Virus record (IMG/VR): IMGVR_UViG_3300031238_000172
Span: 1-38,201 of that record
Length of the DNA stretch: 38,201 bases
Origin: a virus
Reading direction: 5' to 3' (one strand)
A program made the translations under genes and the position numbers. Below are positions 11,212-18,803 of the stretch, piece after piece. Every line of letters starts with the position of its first letter. Position 1 is the first letter of the stretch. The notes beneath the pieces were generated by a model. That model did no database searches. It was given only the letters and a program-made list of their open reading frames with translations, and was not told where the DNA came from.

Positions 11212-11769
11212 TTAGAAATTTCCACAAATGTCACAACTTGAAGGCTCCATAGACGTCGGTTTGATGCCGCACGTTGCACAGGGCAGCCCCATATGTTGAA
11301 GACTAGCGCGCATAGCGAATCGCTTTTCCTTCGGCGTGATGTGCTGAGCCAGGTCGGCTTGCTCTTGTCGGCCGTCTTCTGCTTCCAGCTCAGCATGCAT
11401 TTGAGGCGAAATATTCGGAGCGCTATTGGCCAGCTTTTCCCAAGAGTTGAAAAGACGAGTATTGGCAAGCATTGCAGACGTGGCATAGGAGTGCTGCTCA
11501 TCCCAGCGTGCTACCAGAGACCAAACTGACATAACCAATTGCACCGTGCCAACGATGCCGGCCAGAGCAAGGATATAGGGGAGTATCTTTGGCATTGTTC
11601 CGAACGACAAAATCAGGCTCCCAACGACAACAGGGACAAGGATCCCGAGGAACGTAATCGCGTTGCGCTTCCATCGAAGTCCGAGTGCACGTTGTTCAAA
11701 AATCCTGTAGGTTCCGTAAGCGTAGAACGCCCGATCTCTGCAGTGCTTGGTTACATCAGTAGTTGCCAT
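11212..11769 (-). CDS. SLATT-like two-TM protein with CxxCx11CxxC zinc ribbon
   Basis: 185 residues from the ATG at 11769, chosen because GGAGG lies 11 bases upstream; a longer frame from 11802 has no such site. An N-terminal helical part (ATTDVTKHCRDRAFYAYGTY) is followed by two transmembrane helices (about residues 36-55 and 60-83), a long cytoplasmic helical region, and a C-terminal zinc ribbon CATC-x11-CDIC. This is the pattern of the 'mobilome CxxCx(11)CxxC' proteins, which I place in the SLATT superfamily of predicted pore-forming effectors of bacterial conflict systems. A protective (superinfection or abortive) role is inference. It sits in the repressor operon, so it is probably made in the lysogen. 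Confidence 0.7.
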   Translation of the reverse strand: MATTDVTKHCRDRAFYAYGTYRIFEQRALGLRWKRNAITFLGILVPVVVGSLILSFGTMPKILPYILALAGIVGTVQLVMSVWSLVARWDEQHSYATSAMLANTRLFNSWEKLANSAPNISPQMHAELEAEDGRQEQADLAQHITPKEKRFAMRASLQHMGLPCATCGIKPTSMEPSSCDICGNF

Positions 11770-12074
11770 GTCGCGCTTTTCCTCCCTGGATTGCGTCTGC
11801 ACTTCATCACATCCAACTTCGTCTTCTTCTTATGTTCGATCACCGTCAACCATTGGAGGTTGGCAGTTGTATCTGGTCCGCCACCACACAGCGGAACGAT
11901 GTGATCCACCTCCCATCCCGGGCAGGCCCCGCGCTTGGCCCCGTTCACTGGGCATGGTTGTGAGCGCTTGAACTCAGCCACGGCCGCTTTGGAGCGCAGG
12001 ATGCGGGCGTCTGCCGGTATCGCTATCGCGACTAGGAAGGCAAGGGCGAGCGCTTCAACGGGCTTCAGGAACAT
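11751..12074 (-). CDS. Exported HNH endonuclease-like protein
   Basis: 107 residues. An N-terminal signal peptide (about residues 1-23, ending ADA) is followed by an HNH/His-Me finger: WEVDHIVPL with the metal-binding D-H, GGGPD, then NLQWLT and HKKKTKLD, plus two cysteines before and one within the core. Related exported HNH proteins are common in prophages of betaproteobacteria; activity against incoming DNA in the periplasm has been suggested for such proteins but is not shown here. The 3' end overlaps the start of the SLATT-like gene by 19 bp, so the two are translationally linked. Confidence 0.75.
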   Translation of the reverse strand: MFLKPVEALALAFLVAIAIPADARILRSKAAVAEFKRSQPCPVNGAKRGACPGWEVDHIVPLCGGGPDTTANLQWLTVIEHKKKTKLDVMKCRRNPGRKSATWQLLM

Positions 12075-12098: not shown

Positions 12099-12542
12099 CT
12101 ACCGACAAGCTGCGGTAATACCTGCATTGCTCGCTTCCTGCACCTCCGGGTATTTTGAGTCGGTATGAAAGAGCGTCGACGCATTCTGGCTTGCCACAAA
12201 AGGAGTAAACCCTGCATAACCACCGTAGGAGTTCTTGCCGTTGACCTCTCCGCAAACAACCTTTCCCTCTAAATATCGAACGATACGAACGTTGCGAAAC
12301 TTTGCACTGTCCGGGTCTTTCAGGATGGATGCAGTAGCCGTCTTTGCCTTTTCCATTACATCGTCCTCGGTGTTGGACTGCAAATAACTCTTCACGTCCT
12401 GGTAGTAGTCCGCTACTGTATACAACGACGCGTTTCTGAGCCTAACGATGGGGTCGTTGTAATTCTGACCGTTGTACGCGCACCCAGATAAACCGAGACA
12501 CGGCAGAAAAGCTGTAAATAACAGCGTAGTGAACAGTTTCAT
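12099..12542 (-). CDS. Lipoprotein of unknown function
   Basis: 147 residues with a clear lipoprotein signal: MKLFTTLLF... and lipobox LSGC (lipidated C21). The mature part contains AKTATASILKDPDSAKFRNV, VCGEVNGKNSYGGYAGF and FV, a pattern of small conserved lipoproteins of unknown role found in Proteobacteria. A GGGAGG ribosome site precedes the ATG. It is placed in the immunity operon between the two-TM protein and the HNH gene. Outer-membrane lipoproteins made by lysogens often block superinfection; that role is plausible but inferred. Confidence 0.75.
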   Translation of the reverse strand: MKLFTTLLFTAFLPCLGLSGCAYNGQNYNDPIVRLRNASLYTVADYYQDVKSYLQSNTEDDVMEKAKTATASILKDPDSAKFRNVRIVRYLEGKVVCGEVNGKNSYGGYAGFTPFVASQNASTLFHTDSKYPEVQEASNAGITAACR

Positions 12543-12592: not shown

Positions 12593-13159
12593 TCATGCTG
12601 CTGCTGGCAAGTCTTGCCCATTTAAACCTGTTACAGCCTCATCCAACACTGCATGCCTGACCCGCGTAGCAATGCGCTGTGGCCAGATGAATGCATAGAA
12701 GAAAAGTGACAGGCCGGCCGCATATGCCACGAGTCCCACCATGAACGCTGCTGATCGCATCACGTGTGTTTGAAAGGCTTGGTCAATGTAGTCTGTCCCA
12801 TACACCCAGAGGCCCATCGAAAGGACTAACCATCCTAGCCAGCCGATCATGAGGTCAAGCCCACGCGAGTGGAACTCGAAGGCATCCGCTTGGCGGTTGT
12901 GCGACATTGCTCCCGAGTTCCAAACCCGCTTGAGTTCACGCACCGTGAAGCCATGGTCGTCCAGCAATGACTCAAGGTCGATCCGAGCCTCTTTGGAGCA
13001 ATAGATGCCCGTTGCCTGATAGAACGCAGCCTGCATCTGCGACTCTGCAAGGCTGGTCAACGTTGGGTCTAAATGCAAGATGAAATTACCGTCCCCTGTT
13101 ACTTGGACCGAACCCTGACCGCTGTTGTGTTGTTGAGGCTTGTTTTCTTCTTCGCTCAC
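12593..13159 (-). CDS. Two-TM membrane protein with N-terminal RHIM-like motif
   Basis: 188 residues, GTG start at 13159 behind GGAAGGGAG. The order is a short polar N-terminus carrying NSGQGSVQVTGDGNFIL (residues 12-28), a soluble helical domain (about 35-110; EARIDLESLLDDHGFTVREL), two transmembrane helices (about 110-128 and 142-165) and a short basic C-terminus. The N-terminal motif closely matches the extreme C-terminus of the repressor encoded immediately upstream (9 identities in 17, rest mostly conservative). It resembles the RHIM-type amyloid core (hQh-G-x-x-N-x-h) with one extra residue. I infer a membrane effector that contacts the repressor by homotypic interaction; no known family is recognised. 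Confidence 0.7.
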   Translation of the reverse strand: MSEEENKPQQHNSGQGSVQVTGDGNFILHLDPTLTSLAESQMQAAFYQATGIYCSKEARIDLESLLDDHGFTVRELKRVWNSGAMSHNRQADAFEFHSRGLDLMIGWLGWLVLSMGLWVYGTDYIDQAFQTHVMRSAAFMVGLVAYAAGLSLFFYAFIWPQRIATRVRHAVLDEAVTGLNGQDLPAAA

Positions 13160-13187
13160 TTATCACTCCCTTCCTTTCATTAAAAAA

Positions 13188-13805
13188 CTACTTTCGCCTG
13201 GGCATTACGAAATTGCCTGTCCCTTTGATTTGCACCGCACCAGGCGCTGAGTTGACCTGGTTGTTGTTGCCCATCGCCGGTGTTTGAGGCACGGGCTGCC
13301 CAGGCAGTCCTGCGGACAGTAGTGCAGCCGTCTGAATCAGATTCGCCTTAGCCTCGCGCGTGCAGCGGCGGTAGGTGTCCAACAGCATTTGCTCGTCTGG
13401 TGGCAGTTCTTTGCGCAATCGCTGAATGGCACTGACAACGACGTCTTGTTTGCCTGCGTTGACGCCCATGGCAATGTCCCGCGCGGCCATGGAGTCCTCT
13501 TCGTCCAAATCCATTTCCGCCACGCGTGTGGCACTGAGCTTGAGCTGCGTAAGCATGGCTCCCACCTGCTCGCCGCCAACGGAATTGAACATCTCACCAG
13601 TGCCAGTTGCCAGCCAGTGCGCATTCAGATTGAGCGTCTGAACCAAGCGGCGGGTTTCGTCGGGATCAAGCTTTTTTACCTTGCCAGACGTAAGGCTTTT
13701 CACTCTGTCCAGCGGGACACCAAGTACGTCGGCGAGGTCTTTTTGCTTGAGGCCGCAAACAGCCATCACCTCCTTCAAAAGTGAAGAAACAGGTGAAATA
13801 TTCAT
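13188..13805 (-). CDS. Prophage repressor, HTH protein with RHIM-like C-terminal tail
   Basis: 205 residues. Residues about 8-60 form an XRE-type helix-turn-helix (LKQKDLADVLGVPLDRVKSL). A helical middle follows (about 75-165), with no LexA/S24 peptidase catalytic residues visible, so RecA-stimulated self-cleavage is not expected. The tail, NSAPGAVQIKGTGNFVM (185-201), matches the N-terminus of the next gene's product. It is transcribed divergently from the early operon, has AAAGGA before its ATG, and an inverted repeat (13795-13810) overlaps its start codon, which suggests autoregulation. The location and HTH make it the lysogeny repressor; the tail's role is unknown. Confidence 0.85.
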   Translation of the reverse strand: MNISPVSSLLKEVMAVCGLKQKDLADVLGVPLDRVKSLTSGKVKKLDPDETRRLVQTLNLNAHWLATGTGEMFNSVGGEQVGAMLTQLKLSATRVAEMDLDEEDSMAARDIAMGVNAGKQDVVVSAIQRLRKELPPDEQMLLDTYRRCTREAKANLIQTAALLSAGLPGQPVPQTPAMGNNNQVNSAPGAVQIKGTGNFVMPRRK

Positions 13806-13892: not shown

Positions 13893-14084
13893 ATGCAAAT
13901 CGTCATCGATACCCAGCGCGCCAACGACATCAAGCACAAGCTGCGTCAGCGCAACACCACTCTCAAGCAATGGGCAGCAACCCACGGCTACGCCTACTAC
14001 ACCGTCAGCAATGTCATGCGCGGCGTCAACAAGGCCACTTTCGGCGCTGGCCGTGAAGTAGCAGAGAAGCTTCTCGCGCTGTGA
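13893..14084 (+). CDS. Early DNA-binding regulator (BcepMu gp16-like / Ner-like)
   Basis: 63 residues. The helix-turn-helix TLKQWAATHGYAYYTVSNVMRG followed by KATFGAGREVAEKLL matches the small BcepMu gp16-type phage proteins, which occupy the place of Mu Ner as first gene of the early operon. Its likely job is to damp the early and/or repressor promoter after induction. AAGGAG precedes the ATG by 5 bases, and the predicted transcription start lies about 45 bases upstream. Confidence 0.8.
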   Translation: MQIVIDTQRANDIKHKLRQRNTTLKQWAATHGYAYYTVSNVMRGVNKATFGAGREVAEKLLAL

Positions 14085-17012: not shown

Positions 17013-18803
17013 ATGCCATCCATCAACGCCTCAAGCATTCAACGCCTGGTGCAAGTGGCTCAAGCCACATCTGCCCTGGGGCGTGGCACCAAGGGGGACA
17101 TCGTGAACCAAGCTTGTAAAGAACTGGGCAAGTCGCGTGCCACGGTGTACCGCCAGTTGAAGAAGGTCAGCGTGCGGCCCCAACGCCGCCAGCGCAGCGA
17201 TGCGGGCACGGTCAGCCTGGACAGAAAAGAGGCTGAACTGATCAGCGCCTTGCTGATGGAAAGCCACCGCAAGAATGCCAAGCGACTGCTGAGCATAGGC
17301 CGCGCAGTGCGCTTGCTGCGCACCAGTGGTCAGGTGCGGGCCGAATACATTGATGCAGCCTCCGGCGAGATCAGGCCATTGAGTGACAGCGCCATCAGCC
17401 GTGCCCTGCGCGTGCTGGGCTTGCATCCTGACCAGCTCCTGCAGCCGGCTCCCGCCATTGAATTGCGCAGTCTGCACCCAAACCATGTCTGGCAGATTGA
17501 TGCGTCCCTGTGCGTGCTGTACTACCTGAACGCCCGTACGCCAAATGAGGCGGGCCTGCAGGTGATGCCACGCGAGCAGTTCTACAAGAACAAGCCTGCC
17601 AACCTGAAGCGCATTGAGGCCGACCGTGTGTGGCGCTATGTGGTGACAGACCACAACAGCGGCTCCATCTTCCTGCACTATGTGCTTGGTGCCGAGAGCG
17701 GAATCAACCTGGCGGAAAGCTTCATTGCCGCCATTCAGCAGCGCGATGACGACCCGTTCCACGGCGTTCCGTTGATCTTGATGATGGATATGGGCAGCGC
17801 CAACACCAGCGGCCTGTTCACCAACCTGGCGCGCCGCCTGGATGTGCAAACTATCGCCCACGCGCCCGGCAATGCCCGCGCCACCGGCCAGGTGGAAAAG
17901 ACACAAGACATTGTGGAGCGCTACTTTGAAAGCGCCTTGAAGCTGGTGGCGCCAGTGGGCAGCCTGGAGGAACTGAACGACAACGCACGTTGCTGGTCCC
18001 GCTTCTTCAATGCCACCGAGGTCCACAGCCGCCACGGCCGCACGCGTACCCAGCAGTGGCTCAGCATTCAGGAGGAACAACTGCGGATTGCCCCACCGGT
18101 GGACCTGTGCCAGGACCTGCTCACGCACGAGCCTGAGCTGCGCGTGGTGTCGGACTTCTTGACAGTTTCGTTCAAGAGCCGCGAGGTTGACGTAAGCACC
18201 GTGCCGGGTGTCATGGTGGGTGAAAAACTGAAGGTCACCTACAACCCCTATGACGCCAACTGCGCCTGCATCATCGACATCGATGCAGATGGCCACGAGC
18301 TGCTGCACAGCGTGCCACTGGTGATCCGTGGTGAGGACGGCTTCCGCATCGACGGCGCCGCCGCAGTCATTGGCGAGGACTACAGAAGCTTGCCCGACAC
18401 GCTGGCCGACACCAACCGCAAGCTGGTCAAGCGCATTGCCATGGATGCCAGTACGGACGAGGAAGCCGACGCCAAGCGCCGCGCCAAGACGGTGCCGTTT
18501 GGGGGCCGCATCAAGCCATTCAAGGAAATGCGGGAAACCGTGCTGCCCACCACATTACCCAAGCGGGGAACAGATTTGGTGCCCGCAGTGACCACCAGCA
18601 GCACACCGCTGCCGGTGCGCACCCTGACCCAGTTTGAAGCCGCACAAGCCCTGGTGGCCATGGGCCTGGAACTCAACTCCGAGCTGGTATCCACCCTGCG
18701 CAGCCTGTACCCCGATGGTGTGCCAGAGAACGAGCTGGAGGCCCTGCAGGCCCGCCTGACGGTGCGCACCGGACTGCGTGTTGTTGCTGGGGGTGGGGTA
18801 TGA
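17013..18803 (+). CDS. Transposase A (DDE, Mu A-like)
   Basis: 596 residues. The N-terminal part (about 1-140) has helix-turn-helix segments for end binding (KELGKSRATVYRQLKKV). The integrase core carries the catalytic triad D163 (WQIDAS), D259 (MMDMGSA) and E295 (GQVEKTQ), with the classical 35-residue D-E spacing. A beta-barrel and C-terminal tail (about 400-596) follow; the tail would contact the B protein. It cuts and joins phage ends to target DNA for integration and replicative transposition. The family is that of BcepMu/B3-type TnpA. It overlaps the B gene by 4 bp. Confidence 0.95.
   Translation: MPSINASSIQRLVQVAQATSALGRGTKGDIVNQACKELGKSRATVYRQLKKVSVRPQRRQRSDAGTVSLDRKEAELISALLMESHRKNAKRLLSIGRAVRLLRTSGQVRAEYIDAASGEIRPLSDSAISRALRVLGLHPDQLLQPAPAIELRSLHPNHVWQIDASLCVLYYLNARTPNEAGLQVMPREQFYKNKPANLKRIEADRVWRYVVTDHNSGSIFLHYVLGAESGINLAESFIAAIQQRDDDPFHGVPLILMMDMGSANTSGLFTNLARRLDVQTIAHAPGNARATGQVEKTQDIVERYFESALKLVAPVGSLEELNDNARCWSRFFNATEVHSRHGRTRTQQWLSIQEEQLRIAPPVDLCQDLLTHEPELRVVSDFLTVSFKSREVDVSTVPGVMVGEKLKVTYNPYDANCACIIDIDADGHELLHSVPLVIRGEDGFRIDGAAAVIGEDYRSLPDTLADTNRKLVKRIAMDASTDEEADAKRRAKTVPFGGRIKPFKEMRETVLPTTLPKRGTDLVPAVTTSSTPLPVRTLTQFEAAQALVAMGLELNSELVSTLRSLYPDGVPENELEALQARLTVRTGLRVVAGGGV

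Follow-up and report, generated by a model that had tools for sequence, protein, structure and literature searches.

The stretch of DNA that we analyzed, referred to here as the window, is a 38.2-kb (38,201-nt) virus record of a Mu-like transposable phage. Its Mu-type transposase (17013–18803, plus strand; rve/HTH matches) is 48–51% identical to the transposases of B3/BcepMu-like phages and belongs to the context of the carrier phage, outside the module described below. A 205-amino-acid prophage repressor is encoded at 13188–13805 on the minus strand, an open reading frame (ORF) with HTH matches in Pfam and matches to repressor families in PHROGs (E 4e-7). This protein is composed of an N-terminal XRE-type HTH, a helical middle (DEQMLLDTYRRC...), and a motif-bearing C-terminal tail, and Pfam searches found no peptidase or LexA-type C-terminal domain in it. 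With its N-terminal HTH and its orientation divergent from the early genes, it has the features of a small XRE-type phage repressor. The early gene that faces it (13893–14084, plus strand) encodes an HTH DNA-binding protein (phrog_925, E 7e-13), and this divergent arrangement marks the immunity or switch region. The window repressor is 66–67% identical to the repressor of a second locus, L023, and 37–41% identical to the repressors of phiSHP3 and Bhz63.

The next gene on the same strand encodes what we call the partner, a protein of 188 amino acids with a GTG start (12593–13159, minus strand) that consists of an N-terminal motif, a short helical domain, and two transmembrane (TM) segments. The intergenic stretch is only 28 nt long (13160–13187, minus strand), with a Shine-Dalgarno-like AGGAAGGGAG read directly ahead of the partner GTG, and the corresponding gap at locus L025 resembles it in a TAGTTTTTTAA...GGGGAGTGGGA stretch. 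Since a promoter scan revealed no promoter-like site between the two genes, they probably form a single operon. TM counts throughout this work come from a simple hydropathy scan, which by the Kyte-Doolittle scale places the two segments of the window partner at residues 101–119 (12803–12859, minus strand) and 140–158 (12686–12742, minus strand), in agreement with an initial annotation of this DNA that had called the protein two-TM. An AF2 model of low overall confidence (pLDDT 61) shows helices across residues 32–81 and a hairpin of helices at 87–119 and 126–179; it also puts short strands at residues 18–20 and 26–28, where the pLDDT is below 50 and the strands do not count as evidence.

No family matched the window partner above curated cut-offs in Pfam, PHROGs, PADLOC, and further profile searches. 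A Pfam match of its TM region to TMEM128 (E 0.0025, below the cut-off) was taken to reflect hydrophobicity only. Neither tblastn searches of phages and plasmids nor close-relative scans of the genome and viral contigs yielded a convincing relative, so this two-TM body is rare. Comparison with the two-TM bodies of loci L025 and L028 gave BLOSUM45 p values of 0.004–0.014 for two of the comparisons, while the one between the window and L028 was not significant; homology among the three is suggestive only, and the motif-exchange argument made below does not lean on it. Directly after the partner lies a lipoprotein-like gene (12099–12542, minus strand) belonging to phrog_2320, a family of unknown function (E 9e-24). 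It is followed by a gene for an HNH endonuclease-like protein whose N-terminus is signal-like (11751–12074, minus strand; phrog_333/589), situated between the partner region and a gene for a two-TM "mobilome CxxCx(11)CxxC" protein further downstream of the repressor on the same strand (11212–11802, minus strand; TIGR04402, E 7e-63).

The two proteins have a short motif in common. The class-1 tail motif NSAPGAVQIKGTGNFVM occupies repressor residues 185–201 (13203–13253, minus strand), and the class-1 partner motif NSGQGSVQVTGDGNFIL occupies partner residues 12–28 (13076–13126, minus strand). The initial annotation had drawn attention to this likeness, and its coordinates, frames, and residues for both segments are correct by the ORFs and by direct reading. 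In a local alignment, QVNSAPGAVQIKGTGNFVM of the repressor tail and QHNSGQGSVQVTGDGNFIL of the partner (residues 10–28) have 10 identities over 19 amino acids, with a score of 57 (z 9.6, p 0.001) that none of 1000 shuffles reached. As an empirical null, we scored the tail of each gene product against the start of the one encoded next on the same strand, across the window and the fetched loci. A score of at least 38, the level of even the weaker module pairs, was obtained for 13 of 958 unlisted adjacent pairs, and 12 of these 13 turned out on inspection to be further module members. That leaves one in 946 unrelated pairs (0.1%), which scores 42 and lies elsewhere in the window; none attains 57, and the reported match is real and well beyond chance.

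It had also been claimed that the codons of the conserved residues differ and that the likeness is held at the level of the peptide. The second half of this claim stands: over 20 motif pairs, the same codon was used at 73 of 204 identical residues, compared with 80.8 expected from local codon usage. The first half was slightly overstated, as the window pair uses the same codon at 6 of its 10 identical residues (4.4 expected). Because there is no excess of shared codons, the motifs are not recent DNA copies, and their likeness is kept by selection on the peptides. Within one repressor-partner pair, motif identity is as high as 80%.

The initial annotation had suggested that the pairing, if meaningful, should be seen again in other prophages, rather than the motif occurring only here or unpaired. 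We sought homologues by repressor sequence only, regardless of whether a second copy of the motif was nearby, and every homologue with a C-terminal motif is followed by a gene whose N-terminus bears the cognate motif. At least four motif classes were distinguished. Class 1 is found in the window and at L023 (GAIQVRGSGNTV / GAVQIHGNHNTV), and class 2, which is RHIM-like, at L013, L014, and L024 (e.g., GDNAIQIGSVTGKARI / GDGAIQVGKVGGNVTI). Class 3 is represented by L017 (VSGFGNRVAGNDYHE / VGGSNNRVAGNDFYE) and also by L032, L038, and L043; at the last two loci the partners are short and were located by reading frames for the motif. Class 4 comprises two loci only, L028 (RNFLGVAVGKV / HSWIGIAIGKI) and a weak one, L025. 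Matching is class-specific, the matrix of scores for all tails against all partners being block-diagonal, and own-pair scores reach p 0.001 (z 5.8–10.4) for 10 of the 11 repressors that bear a tail. The remaining locus, L025, gives p 0.057 for its own pair, and its tail scores 45 against the partner of L028. In this tail (L025, 3–581), NSGQGAVQIKG belongs to class 1 and the SFLGLAIGKA that comes after it to class 4, as if the tail had been caught mid-change from one class to another.

Repressor homologues that lack the tail served as controls. In eight of them (phiSHP3 and others), the repressor has no match to the next gene (p 0.18–0.83), and the same holds for P. aeruginosa phage H71 and for KP12, whose repressors are also tail-less. 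With the window excluded, the association between tail and matching partner is perfect across 10 tail-bearing and 8 tail-less homologues (one-sided Fisher p ~2e-5, calculated by hand).

Scans of viral contigs at the DNA level extended these results. All 13 places where two class-3 motifs lie 42–70 bases apart correspond to a repressor and its next gene. Searching for one class-3 motif on its own makes no assumption about pairing; among the matches listed, a second copy is present in 81 of 92 distinct neighborhoods, four lie at contig ends, and seven are unpaired. Among the unpaired neighborhoods, L106 has a degenerate partner, L117 and L172 each have an orphan partner that bears this motif, and the proteins at L125 and L155 probably match by chance. 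At L106 and L043, a degenerate or truncated partner sits beside an intact tailed repressor, and at L117 and L172 the partner is without a cognate tail; a phage can thus lose the partner yet keep the repressor. Searched as a strict DNA pattern in viral contigs, the window motif gave six matches, all of them single-gene and due to chance, and it was because this motif is too variable for such a pattern that the pairing was found through repressor homology. A two-copy class-1 scan gave seven matches, one of which (L062) is a two-gene arrangement with a distant relative of the L023 repressor (37% identical), the tail GAVQVVGSGNTV, and a partner with GAIQIHGNHNTV; the transposase of its carrier is 68% identical to that of the window. 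Together, these data establish a recurrent, motif-matched repressor-partner module in temperate phages. The core idea of the initial annotation, a repressor and a neighbor with a common short motif that is conserved as a peptide and recurs in other prophages, is strongly supported, and the outcome named as its refutation, a motif confined to the window or lacking a pair, did not occur; its interpretation as a whole is partly supported.

When the motifs are removed, the partners of 58 pairs fall into ten body families, mostly with one or two TM segments and in one case soluble. The repressors of these pairs all link to one another through the HTH and helical middle; they are 126–208 amino acids long, and those scanned have no peptidase domain and no ATPase match. 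The commonest body, P0 (phrog_5825; 34 members), has a Flk-like domain and, in most cases, a single TM segment at the C-terminus. Its dN/dS of about 0.1 indicates strong purifying selection, and it shows a weak similarity to phrog_245, "anti-repressor Ant" (E 1.9e-5). P0 partners such as those at L055 (8602–9231) and L067 (2921–3571) resemble Flk, a flagellar regulator, over its N-terminal half (E 2e-15), so that a phage family and a host regulator have this domain in common. The 11 members of P1 combine a CxxC...CxxC arrangement with one to three predicted TM segments. P2 (L013, L014, L023, L024, L062) has no predicted TM segment, and its AF2 model shows a confident three-helix domain whose fold has no counterpart in the PDB at E<0.001. 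A relationship between this soluble domain and that of P0 was rejected (hhalign E 0.004, but 8.5% probability). In the soluble partners of L023 (5651–6061) and L062 (5632–6009), a His-rich linker (HHTHQHSHTHQH...) that may bind metal separates the motif from the domain. P3 has two members, and six bodies are singletons, the two-TM body of the window among them.

Both motifs and bodies have been exchanged in this set. P2 bodies carry class-1 motifs at L023 and L062 and class-2 motifs at L013, L014, and L024, the repressor tail matching its own partner each time, which shows that the motif was exchanged in both genes while the body was kept. The reverse is seen between the window and L023, whose repressors are 67% identical and of the same motif class and whose partner bodies are unrelated: the body was exchanged and the motif kept. 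A functional contact predicts such coordinated exchange. Among close relatives, the partner can diverge much faster than the repressor while the motif stays, with identities of 54% vs 90% for L048/L057 and 50% vs 80% for L013/L024.

Several known systems bear a resemblance to this module. Bacterial amyloid signaling sequences (BASS 1-10) occur in two-gene NLR/Bell clusters (Dyrka et al. 2020, as described in PMC7889193 and PMC8086366). In those pairs, as in the module, adjacent genes carry one short motif at the C-terminus of one product and the N-terminus of the other, there are several motif families, and the partner domains are interchangeable. Unlike NLRs, the repressors of the module are phage DNA-binding HTH proteins with no match to an NB-ARC/NACHT ATPase, and whereas the NLR/Bell pairs are found in filamentous actinobacteria and cyanobacteria, the module is found in Mu-like and P2-like prophages, and its motifs are candidates for amyloid formation. 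No Bell, TIR, or CHAT domain was matched in the partners by Pfam or PADLOC (a set without a Bell profile), and several partners have two TM helices instead. The module lacks an NLR, and no Pfam model recognizes its motifs, so that it is not a member of the BASS/NLR family; the principle is similar, and NLR-effector amyloid-motif pairs are its nearest known counterpart. At the level of the motif, class 1 (hQhxGxGN-hh) and class 2 (AIQhGxVxG) have the hQh-G core and the hydrophobic-turn-hydrophobic layout of RHIM, the fungal PP motif, and BASS3. The RHIM consensus (hQhGxxNxh) differs in that class 1 has one residue extra, the spacing offset that the initial annotation had pointed out, whereas class 2 is without the conserved N and classes 3 and 4 are not RHIM-like. 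The motif does not qualify as a RHIM: besides the extra residue, neither window peptide matches any Pfam model, including the amyloid-signaling ones, at E values up to 10, and the window partner motif matches no PDB chain.

Phage and mobile-element operons offer a second set of comparisons, alike in position and possible role but without homology to the module. The RexB protein of lambda is a membrane protein. In B. subtilis phages and ICEBs1, the repressor ImmR is followed by a co-transcribed conditional anti-repressor, ImmA, an M78 metalloprotease. The order of a repressor and then a downstream gene is the same in the module, but no M78 metalloprotease was found in the window partner, in the other partners, or in 14 carrier records. 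In the lysogenic operons of lambda (cI-rexA-rexB) and 434 (cI-hex), the repressor gene is immediately followed by genes for modulators of the switch or of exclusion (PMC11077077, PMC3564112), and the partner of the module likewise lies directly downstream of the repressor on the same strand. In contrast to the module, Rex is not reported to have a motif that matches CI, and the window proteins have no Pfam match to RexA or RexB. We found no published description of the module in the open-access literature.

We propose a two-gene lysogeny module in which the partner docks on the repressor and controls it, as a conditional anti-repressor, and regard this reading as having about an even chance of being correct. 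A small XRE-type repressor without the usual C-terminal sensor domain would carry a short beta-prone docking motif at its end instead, and the downstream gene would supply a partner with the cognate motif first and an interchangeable body, usually membrane-anchored, last. The partner would probably be recruited through contact between motifs, for which homotypic cross-beta stacking of the amyloid-signaling kind is the likeliest form, and would then most likely hold or co-assemble the repressor at the membrane, lowering operator occupancy under some condition. It is highly probable that the motifs mediate contact between the two proteins. We lean modestly toward a contact that is homotypic, cross-beta, and amyloid-like, because motifs are near-identical within a pair and a single architecture makes use of several motif classes that are unrelated. 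The direction of control, from partner to repressor or from repressor to partner, seems to us evenly balanced. We prefer the former since repressors without the usual sensor domain would gain one through a docked partner, and since the commonest body is weakly similar to an anti-repressor and most partners could hold a repressor at the membrane. The position of the partner gene directly after the repressor gene and the short repressors, peptidase-free among those scanned, also speak for control of the repressor. Against it, a repressor and an anti-repressor in one operon need a signal that holds the partner inactive, the anti-repressor similarity is weak, the role of Flk has no obvious bearing on lysogeny, and the body of the window partner itself shows no anti-repressor similarity. 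Membrane sequestration cannot be universal, because P2 partners have no predicted TM segment. A further version, in which tail and partner motif co-polymerize and prion-like templating sets repressor activity or cell fate, is offered tentatively and seems on the doubtful side; if it were true, prophages residing in the same cell would be insulated by their different motif classes.

The reading of the initial annotation, which we consider unlikely and rank second after control of the repressor by the partner, makes the repressor the sensor and the partner the effector. In the form considered here, superinfection or damage would change the repressor, for instance by titrating or freeing it, its tails would nucleate the partner motifs, and the membrane or soluble partner body would kill the cell or block the incoming phage, in the way of an amyloid NLR-effector pair or of lambda Rex (abortive infection or superinfection exclusion). 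The layout mirrors that of NLR/Bell gene pairs (PMC7889193), and the position is that of lambda rexAB after cI (PMC11077077), with a RexAB-type prophage defense system also reported in P. putida (PMC12894663). A single adaptor with many interchangeable bodies is suggestive of effector swapping, and the faster divergence of partner bodies than of repressors at L048/L057 and L013/L024 is in keeping with it. However, the partners have no PADLOC match except marginal Cas10 ones, Pfam and PADLOC (with no Bell profile in the set) found no Bell, TIR, or CHAT domain, one family is a soluble, small three-helix domain, and the commonest body is anti-repressor-like rather than toxin-like. It is more improbable still that the motif is merely the repressor's oligomerization device and the partner a passive co-assembler or membrane tether that stabilizes a lysogenic complex with no switch. 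Such a tail could replace the C-terminal domain that makes CI cooperative, which these repressors lack, and tail and partner motif are alike enough for a homotypic contact, but tail-less homologues with the same body (phiSHP3, H71) exist and presumably repress, and the upkeep of ten different partner bodies would be left unexplained.

The nature of the contact can be questioned apart from its purpose. Docking of a short linear motif might involve neither a polymer nor templating and proceed instead by dimer exchange or beta-strand addition, an arrangement compatible with the other readings and one that we take as a serious possibility, if short of probable. The motifs match no amyloid-motif model in Pfam, and the polar, charged class 3 (GNRVAGRDYYE) does not resemble a classic RHIM; yet the near-identity of motifs within a pair suggests homotypic stacking over a ligand-receptor fit, and the use of several unrelated classes within a single architecture has been described for amyloid signaling motifs (PMC7889193, PMC8086366). 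As the motifs are short and Gly/Asn-rich, chance, low complexity, or DNA duplication could also be suspected as the source of the match, but we give this practically no credence: it is ruled out by the null pairs, by codon figures that show no excess, by class-matched recurrence, and by the absence of the motifs in tail-less controls.

The repressor and partner of many temperate phages thus probably dock through a common peptide, in a manner resembling the switches of amyloid type that operate in immune cell death. Whether bacteria have signaling amyloids in NLR-independent pathways is a question raised by a 2021 review of the field (PMC7889193), and the module is a large and easily tested candidate for one, at the core of the lysis-lysogeny decision. 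It would let small repressors without a LexA-type domain receive or relay a signal, and it could account for a set of uncharacterized but conserved membrane proteins, phrog_5825 among them. The separate motif classes would also provide a natural set of orthogonal peptide pairs.

Of 20 carriers tested, 13 encode a window-type transposase and are therefore Mu-like. Five carriers with P0-type partners (L047, L049, L055, L058, and L085) do not have it, and a P2-like phage of the Peduoviridae, Escherichia phage 520873, has the module with a partner that is frameshifted in that record. The window repressor family was present in one of 399 sampled Burkholderiales genomes, and the paired class-3 pattern in none of 369 genomes of the class. 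The module region was found in 517 of 5,426 complete E. coli genomes (about 10%), where the intact pair is annotated as a "helix-turn-helix domain-containing protein" (WP_000786769.1) and a "membrane protein" (WP_000290352.1).
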